DNA of 64,000 nt, taken from positions 62,001 to 126,000 of the forward strand of contig JABSSW010000043.1 of the NCBI GenBank assembly GCA_018902385.1, written 5' to 3'. Under the pieces are notes generated by a model. It did no database searches. It saw nothing but the letters and a program-made list of their open reading frames with translations, and was not told where the DNA came from. The first letter of the stretch is position 1; each line of letters starts with the position of its first letter. This DNA is from Physcia stellaris. Taxonomy: Eukaryota > Ascomycota > Lecanoromycetes > Caliciales > Physciaceae. Made by a program: the position numbers and the translations under genes. Positions 4,496 through 60,010 of the stretch are shown piece after piece.

Positions 4496-7400
4496 CTACG
4501 CTTCGGCTTCATTAGGGGCTCCTGCAGCCTCGCCCTGTAATTGCGGCTGCGGTTCATCTTTGATTTTTGGCGACTTGTTTTTGGATTTTTCCTCCTTCCT
4601 CGATCTTTTGTTCATTGGTTTGGCGAATTTGACCTCTGGCCGGTCATCGCCCGTGCTCCTCGTGTCGTCTTTTCTCCAATCCTTGACCTCCTTCAATATG
4701 TCACGGAACCCTTCTTCAAGTGTGTTCATCCTTGCTAACATCAGCTTGCCCATCCTGCGCTGGTCCTCACTTTCACCGGCAGCCTGCTGTTTGGCTCTCA
4801 TGGCACCTGAGGCGAAAGCCATCTGTGTTGCGAAGCTTGAGGGAACAGCACCGACAAAGCCTCCTCCTACAGCTTTGTTGTCGCCAAGATCAGATCCTAG
4901 ATCCATGTTCAAAGACGAGCGACGATCTCTTCCTTGATCATTAAACATTAGCATACCGGCCAAGTCAGGGGCTGACTGGAATAGATTTCGGGGTGGCAGA
5001 ATGGGTCGAGCTCGGGCTGCGCCAGGGGTTGGGCGTTTCGGCGTCCGACGACCTGCTGTTACAGGCGTTTGAGTGCCGCTCCCCGTATTCTTGGCGCTGT
5101 TACGCGCTGTAATAGCTCTGCGGCTAGGAGATGACGAAGAGTCATTGATTGGGTCAATCGGATCATAGAGAACCGTAGTAGTTGAGAAATTCCTTACGTG
5201 AGCCCCACGGTTTGGTCGATAGGCATTACTGCGAGGTTGAATTGGTTGACTGAGCGTTGGGACTTTAGGCCGACTAGATGACCAAGAAGACGACAGCTGT
5301 CGCATCCCAGTTCTACCGTTTAGAGTTCGTTGAAAGTAACCCTCGGGTTCTTCTTCTACATGTCGAGAAGGTGTCTTCTCGATACGAGGAGTGGTATCCG
5401 GTGGATCGGACAACACGTTTTCGTCGTCGTCATTGGTGACTAGTTCATCGTCTCCATCAGCGTCGGTCTGCTGTGGCATGTCCTCCATACTCATGCTTGG
5501 CATGTCACTATCTTCTCTGAATCGTAGACCTGGCTTTGTAATTCTGCTTGTCCCAAATTCCTCTGGGTCTGAAGCAATGGACATAGTGGCCTGTGTGAAG
5601 TCGCGAGAGCGCCCGGTTGGTCTTCTCCGTATTTCCAATAAAGATTGCCGATGTGCAAGCTGACGTGCCTCTAGCTTGTCTACTATTGACCTATCTTGCT
5701 CATCCGGAGGGTTGGCTGTGCCGTTTGGACCCATACTTTGCATCCAATTATTGACGACATTGCTCGTCTTCCGTCGCTCATGGCTTTTCTGTGTGTGGCG
5801 AATTGTATTGTCTCGGAAAGGCCTTCGAAAGACCTCGTCTAATGCGCGGTCCTTCTGATGGGTTGCAACCGAAGGTTCACGAAGCCGAGGGTGATGCGGA
5901 CTAAATAGATTCAAAGCGTTTCCCGGGTTCTCAAAGGCCTTTGCTTGAGTGATAGGTCGCCCCCGTTCGACAAGATCGGTTGGCTCGAAGGTCGCGTGCC
6001 TCAAAAACATACTCTCATAGCCGTATATGACGAACAGGATTGGAAAGTGAGTGATCCTATCGTCAATTCATATGTCAGCATGTTTCGTTGAGTGACAAAT
6101 CGTTTTATATGCGAAAGAAGTTATCCGTGGCTATCTCTGCCATTTGAACAGATGCCACAGGAAGAAACTCCTTCTTTGGGTAGACTTACTTGATGACAGT
6201 TCGGTTCAATCGAACGAACTTTGGGAACGGCAGCATAAAACGCAGGGGAGTGAGAATCCAGGCGACTACGTTCGTTGGTGCAACGTACGAGAACAGCGCG
6301 TCCGACTTGACCATGGAAATCGCATTGACAGCAAAGACGAACTGATGCTCCTCATTCGCATTCTGAACAATGGCCATGAATGAATTCGTAAGGACAGTAA
6401 TAAGGATCGTCACAATTAGGAAGTGACAGATGAACAAGAAAAGCGTCATCATCGCCTTTCCCAGAATATTGTAGTGTCCCCATACATCCCATGCGGCCGG
6501 CGTGTATCCCAAGAGTATCTGGAACATTTGATAAGCCACGCCGTTGGCATCATATCCATCACGACCAAAGGACAATGTAAAGGCAACGAGAAAGCCACTG
6601 CAGCTGATAACGATCAATATGAAGACGGCAGCTAGGTCCAATGCCATCATGCGAAAGGCAATCAATAGCTGTGAGAAGTAGCGGTAATGATCAAGTACAG
6701 AGAACAGTCGTGGGAACAGAAGAACTGCGTTGGCGGCGAGGAGATCGTAGGCCCTATCAGCAGTCTGATGCTTTCGTGCTTCGGGTATTAAGATACCGTA
6801 CAATCGCATGCCATAATAACACACAAGCAGGAGCAAGATCCCGAGGTCGAATGCGTTCCAGAAACTCATGATGTAGAGACTGAAACCTTGCTCATTAAAA
6901 CCCACAATTTCATCAAGCATGAAACCGGCGCTCCAGACCCAGAAAACGACTTCCAGGGCGGTGATGGTCAGAGACCTCTCAATCAAAACAGCAAGAAAGA
7001 GGCCAAGAAGCACTGCGAATGAACAAGTGGATAGGAATTGACGATACCGGGGCACTCTTAGTCGTGAGAGCTTAAACAAAGAGGCATCTCGTGGATCATA
7101 CAGAGTCACAGATCTTCGAGTGGTAACGCTCACAGGATCGAGATGGTCCCTCTGCTTAGCAGGTTGTAGGCGCTCGGGTGAGGCTTGTAAGATAGGCCCT
7201 CTGCTACCAACAGCGCCATAGCCTCTATTCTGGTTTGGTATTACTCTCTCGGGCGGTCGATGGAGGTTATCGGCAGCAGAGTGGAAGACGATGGAGCCCG
7301 CCCAAATAGCCTCGAGTTGTTGAACCACAAGAGGATGTGCCAAAAGTCGTTTGGCTTGGGCACGTATTGCAATTTCCAAGGTTGAAATTCGAGCCGCTCG

Positions 7401-8298: not shown

Positions 8299-8747
8299 GC
8301 CTGAGTCCTCGAGGGTTGCACAACAGGTCGAAGGGAGCGAGCAAGCTCCCTACGCGATGCACCCCGGATTTCTTTAATAAGAGGCGAAGACATCGGAAAC
8401 GGAACGCGACCGATAACAGATAAGGCAACGGCACGCAGCCGCATATTTAGGACACTTGCAATCAATCTAAATATCATCTGACAAGACATTTAGCTTCGAG
8501 CTGGACGAGCATGCGGTGCAATTATGCTTCTCATTGGCCAGGATTTGTATCATACCTCCGCACACCGCTATGTTTGCATCCATCTGAACCAAAGGTCCGA
8601 GCATGAGCAACCCCCACATCCCTTGAAATATTGCATTAGCCGAACGGTATGTGATGTCCATTGTGATCTGATGAAATCGTCATGTCAGGGATTATCCGTT
8701 GGGAATCCTTATCGCGACCTGCGACACTGGCTACATGCACCTTGACG
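8299..8747. other. Intergenic, presumed YVC1-like promoter
   Basis: No gene or repeat was recognised. The interval separates the start of the TRP channel gene from the left TA of the pogo-type transposon, so the transposon sits roughly 450 bp upstream of that start codon. Confidence 0.4.
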
Positions 8748-8749
8748 TA

Positions 8750-11211
8750 GAAGAATCCACCCGGTAACCGGACAAACCTAGTAACCGGACACTCTGAAGT
8801 TAGAGTCTTCGGATTTAAAGTTCTTAAGGCCGTTTGATAGGTAGATTTTATTATTGCAGAAAACGCATATTTGACTTCGAACGTTTCTACATCAATATAA
8901 CGATGACGTAATGTTTGATTTAATGATTTTATTACATGCGACTAAAAATCTTCTTTGACGTTGATCTTGACCGAACGACGAATCAATCAAATCGTTTCGT
9001 TTTTTTCTTCAACGTTCACGCTCGAGATTCTGATTACTTACTCGTATTGACAAATTCATAAATAATTTTTCTTTTCGTCGAAACGTCTGATCGTTTCGTT
9101 GATCGAGCAACGAACTTATTGTTGATCGTTGTAAAATTTTTCTTCGCAATAAATATCAACTTCGCATTATTTCTTTTTGTGAAGATTTTTTTCGCAATCT
9201 TTTTCGCAATCTCTTTCGCAAATATAATGATCAAATTTTCTCTTTTCGCAAATGATGCGACGATGACGAATTGTTTCTTTGTTGATGAAACAATGATTTT
9301 GATTTTCGCGAATTGCTGATCTTGACGATCTCACGACGAACTACTCTTTTCTCGTGAATTTTCTTTCTTGTAAAATCGAATACGTTCAAATGTATTTCAT
9401 TTAATCGTCTGCAAATCGAATTTCAATTTCAATTCAATCGTTTTTCGTCAAAAACTTCTTGATTTATGCATTGAACGTTTTGAAAAAAAAATTTTTTTCG
9501 CTTCTTTTTGAATTTCTTTTTGAATATTAAAATCATTAATTGTTCAATTTGATCGATCATTAAAATAACATTAACGAAAACATGCAACGTTGATTTGTTT
9601 ATTTTTTGAACTATTCGATCAACGTCTTTCGACATATTCAAAATCTGTTTCAAAAACTTTTTCATCTGTAAACTATTGTGAAAAATCATGACGACATTTC
9701 GAATTTCGTCGTTTGAACTGATGCAAATGATCGTGATTTCGACGAAAAAATCAAATGAACTCGAAATAATAAAAATTATCGAATAATGCGTATTCGATGA
9801 TTCGATATTCAAAATTGAATTTTCTCGATTTCGATACTTGTGTAAAATGAATTTCGAATTGAATGATTCGAAATTCGTTTTCGCATAAACGTTTTGAATA
9901 TTCGATATTGTCATTGATTTCTCGCGAATCGATTTGAAAACTTTTAAAAAATCGATTTTATCAATAACATAATCAACTTCGTATTGAGTCAATGCGTGAA
10001 AATCGTTCTTGTAAATCGTCGATAAAAAAACGAAAACGTCTACATTCAAAAATTGTAAAATGTGAATAATGTGAACAAAAAAACATAATAATATAATACG
10101 TTTTTGAACGCAAAATTCAATGATTTTCGTATTAATATGAAACGCATGTTCGTTCACAATAAATATACGATATTCGTCATCGATTGTAACAATTTTCACG
10201 TCGAAGCATATTTGTAATCAAAACAAATTTATTTCGTTGTTGATTCAATCATTTTCATTGCATGTAAAATGAACTTTTGAATAAACATCAATTCAAATCT
10301 TTTGAAATATTATTTTTTTGAAAATAATTCACGAACGAAGTTTTCGATCAATCATTGATACACATTCAATGAGAAAAATTCATTTTCGATTATCGAATTG
10401 AATAATCAATTGATTGATTTCGTGTTTTGAAATAATGATTTTCAATTTCGAAATGACGTTTTGCAAAAAATTTTTTTCGTTCATGTTGTAAATGTTGTCA
10501 TTTTTGATGTTGTACAACGTTTTGTAACGTTGAAATAAATCAAATCATTTCTCTAATATCGCAAAATTTTGTGTCATAATTCGATTTTTATTCAACGACG
10601 AAACGTATTTGCTAACGAAATGTTTATGTCGAATCATGAATTTGTGTATTCAATTGATATTTGTTGATGCGTTAACAATCGAACTAGATGACAAAAAATG
10701 ATACTTATTTAGTGAATTTTTATCATTTTTTGCAATGAGCAATTGCTCGATCATAAATCGAACATGTTGTATTCGAGCAAATCAATTTCATGATTGTAAT
10801 CGTTCGATAATCTTAATCATTATCGTTTTCTCTTCAAGTCAAATACGCTGCAATTTTTGAATTCGCTCAACTCACGAGTTTGCACTCTTGATACGATCGT
10901 TGAAAATGAATGACGAAAAATCATACTGTTTTGCAATTTTGCGTTGCGATTTGATGTTTGACTCGTTCATTCACTCGTTGTATGTCGTCTCGATTCGCTC
11001 GTTTCTGAATAATTGTGATTTCTCGTAATTGATATCGTTCACAGCTTGCTTGACGTCACTCGTAATGTGATCGAAGTCCATGATGTAATATATCAAACTC
11101 AAAACGTTGAAGAAATTGGCCGAGTTGGTCTAGGTGGAGAAAGGTGCGGAGACGATCTAACCCTAACCCTGTCCGGTTACTAGGTGTGTCCGGTTACCGG
11201 GTGGATCCTTC
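8750..11211 (-). mobile_element. Full-length pogo/Fot1-type DNA transposon, heavily C-to-T mutated
   Basis: A 2462-bp element with 42-bp terminal inverted repeats that differ at two positions. Each begins GAAGRATCCACCCGGTAACC and contains two copies of the unit GTAACCGGACA. TA is duplicated at 8748-8749 and 11212-11213, as expected for Tc1/mariner-pogo elements. The minus strand carries one transposase. The interior (about 8830-11100) is very AT-rich and almost free of CC and GG. The outer ~80 bp on the left and ~105 bp on the right, including both repeats, kept normal composition. Intact ends with a dead interior fit insertion followed by RIP-like mutation. Confidence 0.92.
9429..11081 (-). 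pseudogene. Dead pogo/Fot1 transposase
   Basis: One reading frame from the ATG at 11081 can be followed along the whole family pattern. It has an N-terminal helix-turn-helix region (ARIQHVRFMIEQLLIAKND), then KYVSSLNKNR, KTLYNIKNDNIYNMNEKNF and the C-terminal DDE region (IIEFCVQKRIILLCF, IDKIDFLKVFKSIREK). At least nine in-frame stops interrupt the first half and all are TGA; several replace conserved Trp. Two catalytic aspartates of the DDE triad are lost: the family NMDEKG reads NMNEKN, and VDGHxSH reads VNEHAFH. Both changes are G-to-A next to a G. The C-terminal 256 residues (9429-10199) remain open. The copy cannot be active. Confidence 0.88.
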
Positions 11212-11213
11212 TA

Positions 11214-11648
11214 CTCGTACAGGACTGCCTCCGAAGGATAGTATGAATTGCATGAGGCTGAGCCCAAGATGGGGTAAGCCCCAGGCTGGCCACAACCCTG
11301 CCGAGACCTGCTTATGACGGGCTGACCATCTTCATCACATCTCTATAGTGTAGTCTCTGGATTGTAGACGGGATTCCTCATTCTTCGAGTATGCTGTAGA
11401 AAAATTACACAAGCTTTCACCAGCAATCACTCGCTTCTGACAACGATGAATGCCCGAGGATAAGATGGCTGCTGAGCTAGAGATTTTCTCCTCTATGGCT
11501 TGTACGTGACTATGTGCATACCTAAAAAAAATATTTTGAAATTTGGTGTTTCCCCAAACTCGGCCTGCCGTGTGTCCACCAGGTTTAGCCAAGCCGTTTC
11601 GCTCAGTGCGATTGAAAGCGAAAATCTACCATCTGGAAAATTCCTAGC
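11214..11648. other. Intergenic between transposon and STAND-domain gene
   Basis: Composition is normal and nothing is recognised. It probably contains the promoter of the gene starting at 11649. The transposon ends about 440 bp upstream of that start. Confidence 0.4.
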
Positions 11649-14060: not shown

Positions 14061-14410
14061 ACTGTCGATTGAAAAGATTAGATTGATCAAGTAAGATGAT
14101 TTAAGAGATGAGACGATGATCGGGAGATTACATCAAAAGGAAAAGTTGACTAACAAGAAGAATAAGGCCGAGTTCAAGATTCCCATTAAGGTAGGAAGTC
14201 TTGTAAAATTGAGAAGATTGCCGCAAGAATAATTGTCGATTGAAAAGACTGTCTTAGAGATTAGACTGGCTCAGTAGAATGGTATAAGAGATGAGAGTGT
14301 GGTCAAAAGATTGCATCAAGAGAAATACTTGACTGACAAGAAGAATAAGGTCGAGCTCAAGATTCCCTTTAAGGTAGGGAGTCTTGTGCAATTGAGAAGA
14401 TCGACGTAGA
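14061..14410. repeat. Diverged tandem duplication, two units of about 175 bp
   Basis: The unit starting near 14061 (TGTCGATTGAAAAG) recurs near 14232. The block AATAAGG..GAG.TCAAGATTCCC recurs with a spacing of 171-181 bp, so the units carry small indels. Both units read as similar Lys-rich peptide when translated in the plus sense, so the duplication probably arose in coding sequence that has since decayed. Confidence 0.6.
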
Positions 14411-15529
14411 AAGAACAGCACTCTAACAGATTGAAGGCAAGATGAGAGAACTCATATCTAGTGCATACGCTGAGAGAAAGAATGACGAGAATTCAAATCA
14501 AAACAAAAGGTCTGTAGTGGAAATTGATGAACAAATTAGACAGAATGTGCGCAAGTGACAGCGTCCAAGAATTGGCGAGTTAAATCATCCGGCATATACA
14601 CAGGATGATGAGAAACTGGCAGAGTTATCAAGTTATTATGGATTCTTAGGGCCCCGGAGAGAATCGCAAAGGGGTGACGTCAGATTGCGCATCGGATTAT
14701 TCAGCGCGAGCTCTCGCAGCCCCCTCTTTATGATTCGAACTCGGACTTAGAGATTTCCAGCACGCTACATACACTTCTACTCCGGGACTTAGCGATATTT
14801 CAAACGGAACACCTGCCGTAACGAACCACCTGGGTATGACTGCCCATCACTACCCCCAAGCGGAAGGCCCTGGCGCACAAGCAGAGGACTGCCTACAAAA
14901 ATGAGATTTCTGCGGGCGGTGCCAGACCTCAGCGAAGTGTGACGGGTAGCCATTTACGGCAGGGGGTCCTGCCCAGTATACTTTTCAAACGTGCCAGGTT
15001 ATTTGTCGATCAAGTGCATGGTTCTCTGGATTCTCAAGGATGGGGGATACACTATGAAACCCGAAGAAAATAGGGGGTGTCTCCCATCCCGCCTAAGCAA
15101 AGATGGCGGTAAAATTCCACCCCGCGGGATGTAAAGCCCAGGAGATTGCCAAGGACGAAAGGTATAGTTGAGATGGAGAAATTTGCAGCAGTGGCCTATT
15201 ACGGCAGGCGGCTTTGATACAAGAGGAACACTATCAACCAGACTTGACCTCAGGACAGTCCCCCTAGGAGTGAAAAAGGGCGGAGCGGAACCGGAAGACG
15301 GCAAAGGAAGATTCCGCTTCCGACATTCATCATGTCGCGGTGAGTTACCTTTCACTCTTCTACACTACCTTTCACTCTGCGACTTATCCACTTACAGCAG
15401 TGACCTTGTCATTGATTCTTTCAGTCTTCTATTCAATCTTTCATTAGTCCAGGATTCATATTGAATATCAGAACTACGAGCCAGCGATCAGAAAAGTGCA
15501 GCGAGACCTTTCACTGGATTTGTCACTCA
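14411..15529. other. Decayed coding debris, family unknown
   Basis: The first ~300 bases (to about 14720) still read like plus-strand protein with several interruptions, including the peptide ELNHPAYTQDDEKLAELSSY. I cannot assign it. From 14720 to 15529 I find nothing recognisable. GC content is near that of the genes, so this debris did not undergo the mutation seen in the AT-rich islands. Confidence 0.35.
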
Positions 15530-36207: not shown

Positions 36208-39200
36208 TCAGCCTTGAGGTAGGTATGCTGCTAGGGTCTGTCCGAGCTTGCCTAGCGCAAGCGGTTTCGTTAAGAAGTCGTCCGCACCAGCAGCTCTAAA
36301 CATATTTTGAGCCTCCGTGCTGACAACGGCGGTGACAGCGATGATGGGACGTCTTCGTGAAAGCATGCCGCTTGCTTCTAGTTCACGGATCTCTCTTGTA
36401 GCCGTCACCCCGTCCTTGACGGGCATGGACTGGTCCATCAAAATGGCATCTACAATGTCATCGTGCTTCATGATCTGCTCTATTGCCTGCCCTCCGTCAT
36501 CTGCAGTGATGACCTCATATTTCAGGGCATTAAGCATTTTCCTGCCAAGTTTCTGGTTGATTGGGTTATCTTCAACTAGAAGTACGGTGAGGTTCTTTGT
36601 TACTAAATCTTCCTGTGAGTGTTCGTCCGCGGCTGGAGCAACGATCTCGACTTTTGGAGCAAATCTAACAGTCCTTTCCGGAGATATAGGGGCCGGCTGC
36701 TCAAGAGCATCCTTTATTTGTTGTTCAAAAGTGTGCCAGATTAGAGGCTTTTGTAGCGGAATGACTTTGTGGGCCGTAGAAAGTCTCGGTACCTGCTTCA
36801 GGGCCCCTTTGTTATCGCACGGCACCAAGATCAACCATTTGTCTTCCTCTATTAGTTGCTGCGCCACAGACTTGTTTCGCTTCAAAAATTCCAGATCAGT
36901 CCAAACGTATTTACAGTCAATGTTAAAGAGATCAAAAAATGTGTCGACACCCACTATATCCACCCCAAAAGTCGCCCATGATGTACGCAGCCCCTCATTG
37001 TATCGTTCACTGCTGTCAAAGACGGCAATAACGGAGGAGGCTTTGGAGAAGCATGGCGGGCATTTCGGCGAATTGGATAGCTGAATAGGGATCCTGACCG
37101 TAAACGTGGTACCGGTTTGTCCTGATTCGATTCCTTCTTCATCGGGATGATTGCTTTGGACCTCTATTGATCCACCCATCTTATTCAATAACTGTTTGAT
37201 GATGCTCATGCCAAGTCCGGTACCTCTTTGGGAGCCCCGAGTCGTAGCTCTATGGAGATTTCGGAGTCAGTATTGCTCATCTAAGCTACGTTTGCGGGAG
37301 GTGCAACATGTTTCTCGAGCCAAATGTGTCATTTGCTGAACATGACTCAAAACCCAAGCGACATCACGAAAAGGGAAGAAAAGCTCCGAGATATACTCAC
37401 TGTTTGAAAGGCTCGAACAGCTGAGGCAAGAATGAGGGCGGAATACCCGAGCCAGTGTCTTTAACCGTAGCAATCAGGTCGCCCTTGCAGATCTCAATAA
37501 GTAAGAGGATGTAGCCAGACCTAGTGAATTTGAGAGCGTTGGACAACAGATTCATAATAATCCGTTGAATGTAAGTCTCGTCCAGGAACAAGGAGTGCGG
37601 CACTTCTGGAGAGACTACCACCATGAGTTCTACCTCATCTTCGTCATCCTTGTTTGGTAAGAGGAGGAGAATCGACTCGCAGACAGTCCTCATGTCAAGC
37701 GGTACAGGACGGCATGATGCATCGACGTCCTTTTCAAGCTTGCTCCAGTCCAAAACGTTATTGGTAACTTCAAAGCATCAGTACACCCTCCAATTATGCT
37801 TATTGTGAAGTGCCTACTTAGTGAGAGTGTTTTGGTAGCGTGCTGAATAGCATAGAGGAGTGTGCGGCCTTCTTCGGTCAACTGAGTCTGCGAAAGCAGA
37901 TCACTATAGCCTTGGAGGTGATGCAACGGTGTGCGAATTTCGTGAGAAGCTGAGGCGATAAAATCACTTCTGGCTGCTGCTGCTGCCTCGGCGTTCTCCT
38001 TCAAAGCAATAGTTTTCCAGAGTTGTTTTCTTGTCATCACGATCTCTGCCAACTTATTGCGAGAGAGAGTAGCAACATGGGCAAGCAAAAAATTGGCTGC
38101 TATGCAAGTGATTATAGCGATGGTACCAATAGCCACTGCGAGCATCGATGGGTAGCCCCTTTTGACGGAAGGGCCATTATAAGACCAGAAGGTGACGGCT
38201 CGCATCCCTAATATGAATTAGCGTTTCTCCCCGGATTTTTGCATTTTTCAAGAAGGATTACCTGTGAAGTGCATTGCCGCAACGCCGCCACAAGCCACGA
38301 GGGCGAACAGGAATTGCTGGGAGAAATTGGTTTCAATTCTAGCCATTAAGATGCAGCCTACAAGGCAGACAGCCCAGCTGATGAGAGCAGACAGTACGAC
38401 CAAGCCAGGTTCAAGGGTTGAATACCCGCTCGGGATGCGAAGGGCAGTAATGCCTACATAGTGCATGGAAGTAATTGCAAGGCTCCAAAGAAACCCCTTG
38501 AGGATGTTACGGCATGTACAGCCTGCGTATAGCGCTTCTCCAGTAGTTATGAACGCATTTTTCGCAGGTGATGTTCCTCGATTAGCCAGATTCATGATGT
38601 TGCTTAAGCTATAAATACTATTAGTTGAACTCATGACCGAATCAGATCGCCGTGAAATCGAGTGCTGGCTTGAGCCTCTACGCTGCATGCCTGGGTGGTA
38701 AGCGTATTTGTGAGATGTTTCCGGGCCTTCATCGGATCCACTGAGAGCTGCTCTCGAAACCGAGCCATTGAGAAGAGGCACAGTAGGCTGGGCGCTACAA
38801 CTGCTATCAGATTCTGATGATGATTCATTGTCAGAGTCTTCATGACCATTATCCTGAAGGAGAGGCGACTCGACGTCTTGGAAGGCTTCCGGATAGGCCT
38901 CTTGCTCCTCGAAGCGTGCGAGTAGGGGACTCGAGGTACTCTCTTGCATAACCATGTTTGGGCTTTCTAGATGTCTACCCCTCATCTGTGCTCTCCTTCG
39001 GTTTCTTTTCTGTCGCCTGCGCACATGACTATTCCAAAGAAGGTCTGATGCCAAAGCGGCGAATGTGAAGAAAACGGCCAGAATAGCACTCAAGAGAGTC
39101 AGAGGAAGATTAATTCCAATGCGGAGATCTAGTTCGCAGGCCAGCATAGCAACGAAGTGAAGGCTCCATATTGAGCAAAACCCAAACGTGAGGCTCCCAA

Positions 39201-39463
39201 GGACTGTCCAGATCAAAACACTTGAAAAGTGAACCGACATTCGCGCCTGGCACATACTAGACATACGGTCAGGAATACAACACCAAAGCACCGGCAAAGT
39301 CGCTTGGGGAGACAAACAGTTGTGTGGAGGTGAAGGCGCCGAGAAATGATATGGCGATTGACGCTGCAATCAGTCCTGCGTTCCTGAGGCGCTTGAGCAT
39401 TAGCTTCCCGCAAATCATGATGGTAGGACGCAGACTGGATATCAGGACCAGCTCAGCGAACAT
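36208..39463 (-). CDS. MHYT-domain hybrid histidine kinase
   Basis: Exons 39318-39463, 38262-39256, 37818-38207, 37401-37767 and 36208-37249 encode 979 residues; introns are 61, 54, 50 and 151 nt. The N-terminal ~400 residues are an MHYT-type membrane sensor: hydrophobic segments with WSLHFVAM, SMHYVGITAL and AAMHFTGMRA, split by a Ser-rich cytosolic loop. Then come the H-box ASHEIRTPLHHL (phospho-acceptor His near residue 468), N-box NLLSNALKFT, DTGSGIP, RGTGLGM, and a receiver domain with VEDNP, phospho-acceptor Asp in ILMDQSMPVKDG (near 904) and FLTKPL. All catalytic residues are present. The 5' end is uncertain: the same frame stays open upstream to about 39540 without an ATG, so a further upstream exon may exist. 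MHYT motifs are thought to bind metal and may sense a diatomic gas or redox state. Confidence 0.87.
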
Positions 39464-41054: not shown

Positions 41055-41070
41055 AGCTCTGACTCTCTGA
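41055..41070. repeat. Left target-site duplication of the LINE
   Basis: AGCTCTGACTCTCTGA, repeated exactly at 46972-46987. Only the LINE lies between the two copies. Confidence 0.9.
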
Positions 41071-41088
41071 TTGATTGATTGATTGATT
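41071..41088. repeat. Tetranucleotide tail of the LINE
   Basis: (TTGA)n on the plus strand, that is (AATC)n at the 3' end of the minus-strand LINE. Simple-repeat tails of this kind stand in for poly(A) in many LINEs. Confidence 0.8.
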
Positions 41089-41799
41089 CATTAAGCACTC
41101 GAAACCGACCTTAAAGATCCGTTATGCGACTAAAAACAATCGAGCCAATCACCTCCTAGGAGATTCTTGATTCTATACAGAATTATTTGCTCTTGATGTT
41201 TTGTTTTTCTATTCGAGCAAATCACTTCAGACATTTTTATTTTCATGATTTTTTCTCATTTTCACTTTGTACGAAAATTTTCAATTCAATGCACTTTTTT
41301 TGCAATCTTTATTTCTCGTCGTTCGTTATTGAAACTCGTAAATAATCAATGAGTTCGAATTTTTCGATAAATTTTGTCGTTTTTGTCAAATTGATCGAAT
41401 TGATCAGTACGTTCATCAATTTTATTTTTTTTCATTTCGCTTTTTTAATTTCGTCAATTCATAAGTTTTTGCGAAGTTTTTTCAACTTTTTGCATTCGAA
41501 AAGCACGTGTTTGATCGTTTGTTTGTTACACATGCATGAACACATGAAATTTTCGATTTGTTTTTTGTTGTATAAAAACGCTCGTAAATCTATTTTGATC
41601 GTGCGAAATTGTATTGTTATGACGTTGAATTTCTTTGTGAACTTTTCGTGTAATCGCAATATTGTTTTATTGAATTTCGATGTAATTTTGTACAAATTTT
41701 TTTTTTTATTGCAGTTTTTTCACTTTTGATTTCATTGTTGTTTTATCGATTTATTCATCACGATTTTGACGACGTTTTTCAGCATTTGCACGCTCGTTT

Positions 41800-43176
41800 G
41801 TTGTGTTTTGTGATCGATGTTCATTTTTTTTTTTTTTTATTTCGTTTTTTCAATTTTCATTTCGTGATTTGTTTGATCGCAACGTTTGTTTGTTCGTTGC
41901 TCACGATATCGATGTGAATCGAAATTCAATGCAATTTTATTTCAATATATTTGTTTCGCAATTCGTTGATCAATCAAATTATTCATTTCATCAAATATTG
42001 ATCGAAATTGATTTTCGAATTGTGCATCGTTTGAATTGTTGTCTGATTGTCGATGCATATGACGAGTTTCGATTTTTTTGCAAATTTCAAAAACGAATGC
42101 AATCGCATATTCAATGCTAAAACGATGTCATATAATTCAACAAAATAAATCGTGTATGACGTAATGAGTTTCAAATACGCTTTCGTTGTAATAAATTTCG
42201 TTTTTGAAAATATCGTTGTTGCATTCATTTTGTCGTTAATGTCGCTCTCATTTGTATATATGTAATTGATCGAATTCGTTGCTAATTGTATTTTGTGATA
42301 TTTTTTTGCTTTTTTTTTGTTTTTCATGATACGTGCAATTGACGATGTTCATCATGACGATGCGACAAAAAATAAAATTTTCTTCATATCGTGTGTTTTG
42401 ATGTTCGTTTTTTTTTCGAATTTATTCATTAACTTTTTCAATGAATTGACGTTTTTCGATTTTTTGATGAAACGATCGCGTATAATCGTGTCGTATGTTG
42501 AATTTGTTATCAATCTCATTGCGAACGCATTGATGAATTTGTTCAAACGTAAATGCATGAACATTGAATTGATTTCGATGTTGAACGTTTTTTTCGAAAT
42601 CGCTTTGTATGTTTTCGTTATGATTTTTTCGATTTGATATTGAACGTTCGCTAATCTCTTCGCTATTTTTTTGTTGTAATTTTTTTTTTTCGTCGACGTG
42701 TATTACATCGAACATGCGTATGTGAATTGTGAAACGAAAATCGTTTGCATTATTTGTTTCATTTTCGAAAATTTAACATTTCATGTAATGTCGTCAAAAT
42801 TGCGTAATGCTTTTATTGATTTCAATGTTTTCGTTTTGTTTTGATTGATTTGTGCTTTTCAATTGAATTTCTCGTTCATTATGACGTTCAAATATTTCAT
42901 TTTTTTGTTTGTTTTGATTTTTTGATTGAATTCAAAAAATAATATCGATTCGATGTCGTTTGTTTTTTTTTTCGATTGAAATAAATGAATTGATACTTGA
43001 AAAATGCAAATTTCATTTCATGTTTCAATGTTCACGATACGCAAATTTTTTCGTGTGCTTTGATTATGATATCGTTGCATTTTTCGAAAATGTGATTTTT
43101 CGTCAGCATTTTTACATCGTCGACGAATTCGCTCGCTGAAATATTTCTTTTTTTCAAAACTTTCAATAGAGATGCG

Positions 43177-43212
<36 letters not shown>

Positions 43213-45195
43213 GATGACATAAATGAATTTTGTGAAATTTTTATGAATATTTCGAGTTATTCGATATCGTATTCGTTCGTCTTCAATATCGTCATTTTAT
43301 TGAACAAAAAGAAATCAATATATCGTATCAGTTTTTCGTCTAAACGTTTCATTTTGAAATTGTGTAACAATTTTAAACGCGTTATATTGTCGAAAACGTT
43401 CATCACGTCGAAAAACATGATCACGATTATCAATCTTTTGTTTCATGTCGAGTGTATTCGTTTCATCATGTAATGTAATGCGTGTTTCGTAAACACGACT
43501 TTTCTGATTTCGAAATGTGTGCGTGACAGCAAATCGTGTTTTTTCGTCAAAAAGTTGATTCGTTTGATCAATATGAATTTCATGAGTTTGTTTATAATAT
43601 TGAGTAAAATTATTGATTTGTACGAAATCGTCATTGAATAAATATTTTTGTTTGATTTACGTAATGCGATCGTGATCGATTTTCGAAAATGTTTCGAACA
43701 ATAATTTTCGTTCAAATTGACGTTGTATATACGTTGCAAATGTGATGCGATTATGTCATTTATTCATTTTCATATTTTATTGATTATGTCGTCGTCGTTT
43801 GAGATTTTGTTCGAATTTTGTTTGATTATGATTTTCGTCATCTCGTGAAATTGTATGTTTTTCAATTTCAAATTTTGATTGTATGTGATTTTTTGTATGT
43901 CGATTAAAACAATCGTAAACGACGAAAAAAAAAACTTTTTCAACAATATGAATGCTTTTTTGATTGAATCAATTTCGAACAACATGAATGAATGATCGTG
44001 TAAAATCGACAAACAAGTTTTTTTTGAAATACGATTTTTTGTTCATTTGCATGTCTTTCACATGTTGTTTGATGTATCACATTTTTTTTCGATTTTTTTT
44101 TTGTATTGTGTTTTCATGACTTTAGAGATTACGTGATTTAAACGATTTTTCATTTTTTTGTACGATTTTCACAAATTTTCGATTTTGTCGTTGTTTTGAT
44201 ATTTTTTTTTAGTCGATTTGATCGTTTTCGATGTTTGTTTGCATTTTTCGATGAATTTTGATTTCGCGTAAATATTCGATTTGTTAATCGAAATGATTGT
44301 TTCGATGATTGTTTGAATGATTTTTATCAACTTTTTGACTTGATCGTCGATTTTTTTTGTCTGATTGTTGTACGTATCGTTGTTGAAAATGAACGTTTCA
44401 TTATTCGTGATTTTCGTTTGCAATTTCTCGCGTAATATATCGATATTTGTTTTCGTTCAAACTTTTGTGATTTTCGACTCGATCGTTTTCGTTCGCAAAT
44501 TGAATATCGTTTTAATTGAGCGATGATTCGAATAATTGTTCATGTTCTCGTCGATGTCGATTTCGATCATGCTGTTTCGAAACAACGATATTGCGTATGT
44601 AAAATCGATTGTGCTTTCGTTCGTATGTTTATTTCATGTAATTAATTTTATTGATGTGACTTTTTTCAATTTATATTTTTTCATCGTGATTATGAGCTCG
44701 TATGCGTTCGCGTTTGCTTTCACATGTGATTTTTTTCAATTGAAATGATGTAAATTAAAATTTTTCACGACGACGTGTTTTTCGTTGACTTTTTTTTGCA
44801 TCGCGTTTTTAAAATTGAATATCGCGTTGAAATTTTCGTTGCTTTTGCATGAATTATACATGTTGTGAATGTTGATAATTTTGTCGTTCGCGATTTGCAT
44901 TTTTAACGAAATCAAATTTTTGTTGTAAAACGTGTGAAAGTATTCGATTTTCGTTATTTTTTTGTTGACGAACATGCACATTTTCGTGATTGCATCGAAC
45001 ATGTACAATAATTCGAATTGTTGCGAAAATTTGTTGTTTGTCGTGAATTGAAATGAATTCTTTTATGATTTTTGCATGATCAATATATCGAATTTTTTTA
45101 TGTTTTTTGTTTCGAACAACGATATCATGATTTGAATTTTCGAGTTGTTGACGTTGTATTGTAATATCGATAATGTGTCGTTTTTTAACATTTTT
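41800..45195 (-). pseudogene. LINE ORF2: endonuclease, reverse transcriptase, RNase H (dead)
   Basis: Begins near 45190 with NDTLSILQYNVNNSKIQIM, the start of an APE-type endonuclease, whose later block HVVVKNFNLHHFN stands for the family GDFNLHHPN. Reverse transcriptase follows: HFRKSITIALRKSNK, SYKSIILLNIINKLM and FDVMNVFDNITRLKLLHNF. The catalytic box reads EFVDDVKML near 43.1 kb and keeps both aspartates. RNase H shows LVICIDNQTTIQTMHNSK near 42.0 kb. Many stops interrupt the frame. The three checked in the RNase H part (41.9-42.0 kb) are TGA, and at least two stand where the family has Trp. Confidence 0.88.
43181..43210. repeat. 30-nt A homopolymer inside LINE reverse transcriptase
   Basis: Thirty consecutive A on the plus strand. 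On the coding strand this is poly-T and translates as a run of Phe directly before YNASLL, where relatives have a Leu/Pro/Phe-rich segment enco​ded by a pyrimidine-rich tract. Confidence 0.9.
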
Positions 45196-46700
45196 TCATT
45201 GTTTTGAATCTCGTATTTCGATTCGTGACGTCAGCTAAAAATGTTCTGATGATCGTGAACGAGAAATTTTTTTTTTTTTCAAATTTCTCATATCTTTTTC
45301 TGATCATTGATGTTTTTTTATTTTTGATCGATGACGTCGATTTATCGTTTTTTTTGTCTCGAAATTTCTGTGAATTTGAAGACAATTGCGATGACATCAT
45401 TGTTTCGATCGACAAAATTATTTTCACGTGAAATTCATGCGCGTTCGTTTTTTTGCGTTTGTTGATTTCGTCTAAATAAATTTTTTTTTTTTGTGATTTT
45501 TCGATGTTTCGTCGTTGTATTTTTTTTAGTTGATTGAATTTCTTCGCAACGACTGTCGTTTTTGAATTTTCGTGAATTGTATTCATCGATTTCGAAATCG
45601 TTATCATTTTGTTGACGACGATGTATTGCTGTTTTTGAATTTCGAATTTCGCTGACGTAATCAAACGTTGATACATGATTTTTTCGATTTTCTTTTGTTT
45701 TTTTTTGCATTTTTTTCTTTATGAATTATGTGTTTTTTCACATACACAACATTTGATTTTGTAATTTTTTGCGCATTTTTTTTTTTTGTAACATGCGCAT
45801 TTGCGCAATAATCGCATCGTTCTTTTTTTGTACATTGAATTGTATTGTGTTCGTGATGATGACATTTATAACATTGAATAGTTTTGCATGTCTTGTTGAA
45901 CATTGAGCAAATTCTCAACTTTTTTTCGATCATGATGTTGTTGTTGACATATTGTTATTCATTTCTGAAATAATGATTTCAATAATCAAAAAATGATATT
46001 GTTGCATTGTCGTGAATTTGTTTTTTCAAAACACGTACAAAATTTTCATTTCTTTTAATTTTTTCACGTTTTCGTTTTTTTTTTTGATTTTACGCATCGT
46101 CGTTTTTCTATTTTTTGTCGTTGTTAAATCGAATTTTTTGATTTTTATTTCGTTGATCATGATCGCGTAAATCGAAACGATCGTTCTCGTTTTTTTATCG
46201 AATATCGTCGTTCATGCATTGTTGTTTCGCAATTTTTTTGCTTTTTTTGCGTTTATCGCGTGTATCGCGAAATCATCACTCGAAAGTTTCTTGATCGCTC
46301 GAATATTTTTGATTTGTATGTTTTTTTTCGTAATGTACGTGTTGATTTCATTGACGATACGTTTGATTTCGTATTGATTCAATTGTTGTTTTTTTTCGTT
46401 GTCGTTTAAACGTATTATGATTTCGATGTTTTTGTTTGCGATGATTTTGAACGCTGAAAAAATCGCAACGACGACTGTTCAATTGCGTGAACTCGTCTTG
46501 ATCGTGAAAAAAAAAAAAAATTTGAAAAAAATGATTATTTCTGTAATTTCATGACGAATCATGACATTGTTTTTTTTCATTTTCGCGTGCTTTTTGTTGA
46601 ATTGAGCAATCATTTTGTTCATTGCGTTTATCATGTTTCTTTGAATGAGTGCAAATTGCGTGTTTTCAAAATATGTCACGACGATTGTAAATCAACTTTC
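45185..46700 (-). pseudogene. LINE ORF1, gag-like with zinc knuckle (dead)
   Basis: The clearest mark is the CCHC knuckle CYKCHHHEHNTIQC (C-x2-C-x4-H-x4-C) near 45.83 kb, followed by a second, degraded Cys cluster (CDYCANAH). Downstream is a Lys-rich tail, 45185-45676. Upstream, 46479-46679 holds another open fragment. This is the nucleic-acid-binding protein of Tad-like LINEs. Confidence 0.75.
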
Positions 46701-46971
46701 AATGATTTTTGATGATGATTTTTTTTTTGTTCGAACGAGTTTTCGACATTTTTTGATGTTTTTCAACAGCATTGTTTTTTGTTCGTGAACGTTTTCGTTC
46801 GTTTGATTTAACAACGATCATGTTATTTTTTTCATCATCATCAATTGCTCATTGATCGATGCGCAAAGGTTCGGCGATTCGAATGACGCGTTAATCAAAT
46901 CAATATCACGTTTCGTTGTTGAGTTATTTCAAAAATTGGGTTTGTAGCATAAATTGTGTTTTTTTTTTTTC

Positions 46972-46987
46972 AGCTCTGACTCTCTGA
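46972..46987. repeat. Right target-site duplication of the LINE
   Basis: An exact copy of the 16 bp at 41055-41070. Confidence 0.9.
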
Positions 46988-47282
46988 GCTCAGCTCGATA
47001 CCCACCTTCAACCCTAGATAAACCCTAGACTAGCGCTGAGCAAACTTTTGTCCTTGTCCAATGGCAGTGGACCTCAAATGTGGACTGGTTTCACAGCCTG
47101 GGAGATGGCAGCTGAATAGTATGATCGAGCCGAGTGAAGGAGCCGCTACTCGGACATGAATCCTATGATGTATAAGTTGATCATATTCTCGATGAAGTAA
47201 ACCCAGATTCTGGTAATCCCCATCTTCTCTACCTAGGTATTTTCGTTGTCAATTGAGATCACATAAGTGCACACCTTTCAGA
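46988..47282. promoter_or_regulatory. Presumed het-C promoter
   Basis: A short interval between the LINE and the het-C start. Composition returns to normal immediately at the duplication. Confidence 0.4.
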
Positions 47283-58816: not shown

Positions 58817-60010
58817 ATGCCCTTCGCACAACTCGCTCTTGGGCCCCCGGGCTCCGGCAAATCGACCTTTTGCAATGGCATGCACCAATTCCTCTCTGCT
58901 ATTGGCCGCAAATGCTCTGTCGTCAACCTTGACCCCGCCAATGACGCGCTACCATACCCGTGCGCACTCGATATCCGAACTCTAGTCAAGCTGGAAGACG
59001 TCATGACGGAGGAGGAACTTGGACCGAACGGCGGCGTGATGTGGGCGATGGAAGAGCTGGAAACCAACTGGGAGTGGTTCGAGGGAAAGTTGGGGGAATT
59101 GGGCGGTGAGTCTGGTTATTGAATGTTTGGGGATGGTGGGCTGGGAGGGAAAGACGAAAAGCTGACTTGAGGAGAGCGGTAGAGGATTATGTGCTTTTCG
59201 ATTGTCCGGGGCAAGTTGAGTTGTTCACGCATCATGAGAGCTTAAGGAACATCTTCTTCAGGATACAGAAGTTTGGGTATAGAGTTCGCTTTTCCCTTTT
59301 CTCCCTTCCTGTTCAGATCTCTCCTGCAGAAGCACTCAGCTGACTGGTCCTGGCTGCAACAGCTAGTAGCCCTACATTTCACAGACTCTTATGCGCTCAC
59401 ACTACCCTCTCTGTACATCTCAACGCTGCTCCTTTCCCTCCGCGCCATGCTACAAATGGATCTTCCCCACCTCAACGTCCTCTCGAAGATCGACAGGCTC
59501 TCCTCCTACGGCCCCCTCCCGTTCAACCTCGATTACTACACTGAAGTCCAAGATCTTTCCTATCTCGTCCCCCATCTCAAAGACGAATCGCCAATGATGC
59601 GCCATCCCAAATTCGAAGGACTCAACAACGCCATCATCGAGCTCATAGAAGATTTTGGTCTCGTAGGTTTTGAGACGCTGGCGGTGGAGGATAAGAAGAG
59701 CATGATGACGCTCCTGCAGTCGATAGATCGGGCGGGCGGGTATGCGTTTGGCGGGGCGGAGGGCACGAATGATACTGTATGGCAGGTTGCCATGAGGGAG
59801 GGGTTAGGGAAGATGAGTGTTCGGGACGTGCAAGAGCGGTGGATAGACTATAAGGATGAGTGGGATGAAAAGGAGAGGAGAGAGAACGAGGAGGCTGCGA
59901 ATGGTGTCGAGGGACCTAACGCCAGCGAAGACGAGGCGGATCACGATAAGACCGAGGACATGCAGGCAAAGCTACCCGACAGCGGCGTGAAGATAGTGAG
60001 GAAAAGCTGA
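58817..60010 (+). CDS. gpn2: GPN-loop GTPase 2
   Basis: Exons 58817-59105, 59183-59283 and 59363-60010 encode 345 residues; introns are 77 and 79 nt. The G1 loop is GPPGSGKSTFC, followed by VVNLDPANDALPYPCALDIR with the Gly-Pro-Asn loop in LGPNGGVMWAMEEL, G3 FDCPGQVELFTHH, and G4 NVLSKIDRLS. HFTDSYALTLPSLYISTLLL matches the GPN2 branch. The acidic C-terminal tail is disordered. GPN proteins help assemble and import RNA polymerase II and III. The second donor (GTTCGC) is weak, but the junction gives the conserved YRLVALHF. Confidence 0.92.

Follow-up and report, generated by a model that had tools for sequence, protein, structure and literature searches.

The DNA analysed here (the window) is a 64,000-nucleotide stretch of the ascomycete Physcia stellaris (contig JABSSW010000043.1 of assembly GCA_018902385.1, positions 62,001 to 126,000) in which two transposons of unrelated classes lie among single-copy genes: a pogo/Fot1-like DNA transposon (8750–11211, minus strand) and a long interspersed nuclear element (LINE), i.e. 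a retrotransposon without long terminal repeats (41071–46971, minus strand). The LINE and the interior of the pogo element appear heavily mutated from C to T, in a context unlike the CpA of canonical repeat-induced point mutation (RIP): C before a pyrimidine (CpY) has been depleted, with CpC exhausted, CpT reduced, and CpA and CpG spared.

The pogo element is delimited by unmutated terminal inverted repeats beside TA dinucleotides (8750–8791 and 11170–11211, plus strand), whose arms, taken as 8747–8791 and 11170–11214, are 96% complementary. Its minus-strand transposase frame (8778–11129), in which TGA is the only stop, matched the Pfam domain DDE_1 (E 1.3e-13) when TGA was read as Trp. Searching viral contigs with this read-through transposase returned 50 pattern stretches and no relative, and the inverted-repeat motif had no match in viral contigs. 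Just within the right end of the element sits a telomere-like motif, CTAACCCTAACCC (11157–11169).

Identical 16-bp target-site duplications flank the LINE (41055–41070 and 46972–46987, plus strand); the sequence matched twice in the window and never in 100 shuffles. Three open reading frames (ORFs) were delineated on the minus strand. ORF2 (42879–45317), covering the endonuclease and part of the reverse transcriptase, is identified by a Pfam match of the N-terminal part of its read-through translation to Exo_endo_phos_2, ‘Endonuclease-reverse transcriptase’ (E 2.7e-8). ORF1 extends from stop to stop beyond the element's end (45726–47024), and a third frame (41743–42702; 320 codons with ten TGA and one TAA, the latter ending the frame) holds, by eye, an RNase H, for which Pfam RNaseH_like gave a weak match under the cut-off (E 0.024). 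The reverse transcriptase, RNase H and zinc-knuckle parts, for none of which Pfam returned a significant match, are what we take them to be from motifs recognised by eye. Given that the reading frame changes between ORF pieces at 42700–42880 and 45600–45730, and that TAA stops are more numerous downstream of 42881, part of the LINE's decay may predate the CpY mutation or be additional to it. On the plus strand, a run of ~30 A at 43179–43212 in the reverse transcriptase region translates to consecutive phenylalanines in the frame of ORF2 and is perhaps a tract lengthened after mutation; two telomere-like AACCCTAGA motifs lie at 47010–47029, just beyond the right end of the LINE. Searching genome contigs with the ORF2 piece gave 11 pattern stretches and no relative, neither this piece nor the transposase matched any PDB sequence, and single-sequence folds of the two elements' proteins were of very low confidence (mean predicted local distance difference test scores of 36.0 and 37.2).

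Loss of CpC and CpT from both elements

The first-pass annotation had drawn its proposal from hand counts in 120-nt blocks of the LINE, and these were reproduced: 42001–42120 holds eight CpG, seven CpA, two CpT and three TpA with no CpC or GpG, and 45001–45120, where CpC and GpG were said to be absent and CpT and ApG rare, holds a single CpT and no CpC, GpG or ApG. Over the whole of 41166–46971, the plus strand contains no CC and four GG (at 46868, 46873, 46938 and 46939, near the LINE end), along with 106 CT (odds ratio 0.31), 46 AG (0.20), 273 CA (1.47), 522 TG (1.21), 361 CG (3.03) and 264 TA (0.39). Surviving C mostly precedes G or A, and TpA is low and CpA/TpG high, as had been claimed. 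The same pattern was present in 8830–11100 (three CC and one GG; odds ratios of 2.88 for CG and 0.44 for TA). The outcome of the dinucleotide odds that the annotation had named as refuting its proposal, CpA/TpG depletion with TpA enrichment, which is also the signature of canonical RIP, was seen in neither element.

For the mutated cores, we derived predicted counts from how densely each dinucleotide occurs elsewhere in the window. The LINE core (41166–46867; 5,702 bp) contained none of 653 predicted CC+GG and 149 of 785 predicted CT+AG, together with 783 CA+TG (774 predicted), 354 CG (308 predicted) and 259 TA (252 predicted). Likewise, the pogo core (8866–11077; 2,212 bp) retained one of 253 predicted CC+GG and 94 of 305 CT+AG, with CA+TG, CG and TA at 275, 139 and 117 (300, 120 and 98 predicted). 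The missing CpY sites number ~1,289 in the LINE core (22.6% of positions) and ~463 in the pogo core (20.9%). In 1,000 base shuffles, CC+GG ranged from 201 to 282 for the LINE core and from 69 to 124 for the pogo core, and none of the 485 overlapping 2,212-bp windows of host sequence fell below 185. The longest stretches of the window free of CC and GG are the two element tracts (5,709 and 2,107 bp), followed by 131 bp adjoining the pogo tract (8840–8971) and 127 bp elsewhere. As CpC and GpG are both gone and CpT and ApG both reduced, both strands are affected; the 5′ base had a weak effect on residual CpT (0.05–0.13). The loss of CpC and CpT is real, and the evidence for it is strong.

The 1-kb bins that touch neither element had CpC odds ratios of 0.69–1.24, and the flanking single-copy genes showed no CpY loss. 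Domains in the flanking ORFs comprise Het-C, a BUD3 PH domain, a YVC1-like channel, a LYC1-like domain and importin-9; they mark the host as fungal and, as a matter of judgement, as most probably a filamentous ascomycete. No transposon domain was found in 20 scanned ORFs out of the 22 of at least 200 amino acids in the window, the remaining two either falling inside the pogo transposon or opposing another ORF on the complementary strand. On adjacent minus-strand ORFs at 36208–39369, a response-regulator receiver domain and an MHYT domain may belong to one hybrid sensor kinase gene split by an intron, and a telomere-like GGGTTAGGG lies at 59801–59809. Scanning the window for Rfam families and tRNAs yielded no match, and a scan for intron motifs did not discriminate (12 matches against a shuffle mean of 15.65).

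Codon spectra and fitted mutation rates

A mutator of CpY would convert Trp codons to TGA, and a mutator of CpA would convert Gln codons to TAA or TAG. Across the 736 codons of the transposase frame in the pogo core we counted 18 TGA and no TAA, TAG or TGG, alongside 39 Gln, 43 Arg (CGN), 22 His and 15 Met codons, a single Gly (GGN) and no Pro (CCN); as a control, the other five frames over this stretch carry 8–26 TAA+TAG each. LINE ORF2 (813 codons) contains 15 TGA and three TAA, the last of which ends the frame, no TAG, TGG, GGN or CCN, and 27 Gln codons, and the ORF1 stretch at 45955–46867 (303 codons) has five TGA and no TAA, TAG or TGG. With 39 Gln codons kept and no TAA or TAG in the transposase, the 95% upper bound on conversion of Gln to a stop is ~7%, presuming that the ancestral frame was open.

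We also fitted a C-to-T rate for each 3′ base, in a model that gave the ancestor the host's dinucleotide structure and a G+C content (GC) of 0.48–0.52. At such host-like GC, the rates were 1.00 for CpC, 0.78–0.80 for CpT, 0–0.02 for CpA and 0 for CpG in the LINE, and 0.99, 0.65–0.67, 0.04–0.09 and 0 in the pogo element. Allowing CpC and CpT only gave negative log likelihoods of 13,784 (LINE) and 5,436 (pogo), ahead of five alternatives (CpA-only, CpA+CpT, CpG-only, CpC-only and uniform; 14,188–14,946 and 5,580–5,804) by at least 404 and 145 log units, respectively. Composition, mutation model and codon spectra therefore support the mutator acting on C before a pyrimidine that the annotation had postulated, on both strands and in two unrelated transposons; its target stands for CpC, which is saturated, and has to be qualified for CpT, of which just about two thirds to four fifths were converted.

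On these grounds we judge it quite likely that both transposons were inactivated by a RIP-type C-to-T mutator, confined to the elements and aimed at CpY, from which CpA and CpG were essentially exempt. Several points weigh against this. With one copy of each element in hand, we infer rather than observe repeat dependence and the changes from ancestral to derived bases. The TAA codons inside LINE ORF2 allow for a low CpA rate or for other decay, the LINE reading frame shifts between pieces, and the lack of TAA and TAG is partly a matter of selection, because the frames were picked as open under TGA read as Trp. In the pogo core, residual CpT differs by strand (79 CT to 387 TT versus 15 AG to 312 AA; Fisher p 4e-8), an asymmetry outside what the model explains that ancestral codon composition could have caused; in the LINE core the strands are alike (p 0.63). 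Finally, the fitted rates depend on the presumed ancestor. If its GC is allowed to reach 0.61, the LINE rates become ~0.13 for CpA and ~0.15 for CpG, and the bootstrap range of the pogo CpA rate is 0.04–0.16 at GC 0.53. With ancestral composition left free, CpA and CpG rise to 0.20 and 0.25 in the LINE and to 0.36 and 0.44 in the pogo element, where CpT falls to 0.20. We set the free-composition fit aside as implausible because it demands an ancestral A content of 8% (LINE) or 1.5% (pogo).

That some ordinary process, be it CpA RIP, CpG decay, ultraviolet damage, deamination of single strands or plain AT-rich composition, has been misread as something new is the least credible of the explanations considered, and we give it next to no weight: the low GC of the tracts (0.28–0.29) is a general outcome of RIP, but in the LINE CpA/TpG, TpA and CpG match or exceed the host level, the CpA-only and CpG-only models fitted far more poorly, and CpC is lost from both strands. 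Ultraviolet damage would strike TpC, which is kept in the LINE (70 vs 74 per 1,000), and CpG decay is rejected by the retention of CpG in both cores. Plain AT bias can yield neither an absence of CpC at threefold CpG odds nor frames free of Gly and Pro codons. APOBEC-like deamination of one strand follows the 5′ neighbour (e.g. CC to CT) and leaves a strand bias; here, CpT is depleted where such deamination would raise it, and both strands have lost CpC.

Comparison with known mutators

Thresholds for calling sequence RIP-positive are TpA/ApT above 1.15, (CpA+TpG)/(ApC+GpT) of 0.75 or less and a composite index above 0 (PMC7882544). At 0.38, 1.35 and −0.97 for the LINE and 0.41, 1.34 and −0.93 for the pogo element, these CpA-based indices class both tracts as unmutated, as the annotation had foreseen. 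Two other hallmarks of RIP are in evidence: composition and codons suggest C:G-to-T:A change on both strands, and the change is confined to transposons, both tracts lying within the LINE and the pogo element and the other bins being ordinary. On the evidence available, the process acts like RIP and lacks the CpA preference of its canonical form.

Fungal signatures on record comprise CpA, CpT with CpA, dominant CpT, and CpG or TpCpG (PMC4352252, PMC7882544, PMC2621366, PMC4014442), and a kingdom-wide study of 2025 described RIP-like defences as sharing a CpA preference (PMC12543289). The process in P. stellaris resembles the CpA-type RIP of Neurospora, Leptosphaeria and Mycosphaerella in its loss of C on both strands, its restriction to transposons, its sparing of single-copy genes and its destruction of coding frames, but CpA/TpG is the main target there (PMC4522978, PMC4352252) and is spared here, where CpC is exhausted. 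Conversion of CpT to TpT is prominent in Magnaporthe, Botrytis and Sclerotinia and, by RIPCAL, in Neurospora Tad1 (PMC4352252, PMC2621366, PMC7882544); in these cases CpA is struck as well (Table 2 of PMC4352252), unlike in the present elements, in which CpC is the strongest target. The hypermutation of CpG/TpCpG in Basidiomycota (Microbotryum, Rhizoctonia solani AG8) likewise departs from CpA in its C-to-T bias, yet its named target, CpG, is not depleted in either core and is fully kept, the LINE interval carrying 233 TCG on its plus strand. In AG8, SNPs (single-nucleotide polymorphisms) at CpC are the commonest, at one per 214 bp genome-wide, compared with 370 for CpG, 422 for CpA and 491 for CpT (Table 2 of PMC4014442, the text of which names CpG); that table covers heterozygous SNPs over genes and repeats, in contrast to the repeat-confined, CpA-sparing saturation described here. 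Monilinia shares the alteration of CpC, there in the form of CpC to TpT double mutations beside classical CpA to TpA RIP (PMC8959702).

A literature search for change of CpC to TpC in RIP returned no paper; a CpC case in Clutterbuck 2011 is possible, and the CpC strings in PMC5602860 are strain numbers, not a dinucleotide signature. On the evidence available, the CpT part thus has precedent, and CpC saturation with CpA spared has none in the portions of the literature examined.

Spared ends, timing and proposed mechanism

In both elements the signature ends inside, short of the termini. CpY was kept near host density at three of the four ends: the pogo left end (8750–8864; 115 bp) holds 13 CC+GG (13.1 expected) and 15 CT+AG (15.7), its right end (11111–11211; 101 bp) 21 (11.5) and 13 (13.8), and the LINE 3′ end (41071–41160; 90 bp) 7 (10.2) and 9 (12.3). 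The fourth, the LINE 5′ end (46868–46971; 104 bp), is partly mutated, with 4 CC+GG (11.8) and 2 CT+AG (14.2). The tracts first delimited are thereby refined: the elements span 41071–46971 and 8750–11211, with most of the outer ~100 bp spared. This sparing is a description rather than a test, because its limits were set by eye from the same counts; it may be the trace of a process in which the inner part of a duplicated sequence is what is recognised.

The state of the cores also speaks to timing. About 17% of random substitutions would create a CC or GG, and none was regained in the LINE core, which limits later substitutions to ~0.31% or less (95%); in the pogo core, substitutions since saturation amount to at most ~1.15%. 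Saturation is therefore recent or maintained, and a burst fits better than slow decay. In many eukaryotes, methylated transposons lose methylated cytosines with time, and spontaneous deamination of long-standing CpY methylation could have emptied the cores in this way instead of a repeat-induced burst. We reject this as very improbable, since CpC conversion is complete and other changes are few: besides the above limits, the absence of TAA and TAG from 736 codons caps other substitutions at ~83 over the 2,208 bp.

In the mechanism that we propose, C before a pyrimidine would be the target on both strands, CpC more so than CpT, and the missing CpY would have become TpY by C-to-T transition, with GpG turning into GpA and ApG into ApA as the outcome of opposite-strand events. 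Both elements would be repeated in the genome, and repetition would trigger the mutator before meiosis. The agent might be a RID- or DIM-2-like enzyme that methylates or deaminates cytosine, conceivably a methyltransferase homologue of the RID/Masc1 or DIM-2 class whose preference for the 3′ neighbour has been altered. The graded preference for CpC over CpT suits one enzyme and is possible with two, of which one (e.g. a RID homologue) would account for CpC and the other, a methyltransferase resembling DIM-2 whose products are then deaminated, for CpT. Such a division of labour would match the saturation of CpC beside just 65–80% conversion of CpT, the CpT preference ascribed to DIM-2 in a 2026 review (PMC13297926) and the CpT signatures reported from several RIP fungi (PMC4352252, PMC7882544). 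We nonetheless think it unlikely, as CpC and CpT loss have common tract limits in both elements and a single enzyme with a graded preference takes fewer parts.

Whether the lineage possesses a distinct CpY mutator of repeats, in the form of a re-aimed RID-class or an unrelated enzyme that acts on both strands, stops ~100 bp inside element ends and makes a lineage with active RIP look RIP-negative to CpA-based scans, is to our minds an evenly balanced proposition. If it does, a mutator of CpC and CpT that spares CpA would contradict the shared CpA preference concluded in PMC12543289, and would evade the index thresholds by which species are called RIP-capable. The spared ends of ~100 bp would offer a testable footprint of repeat recognition, and the mutator itself would be a natural specificity swap, through which one may ask which part of a RID-class enzyme selects the 3′ neighbour.

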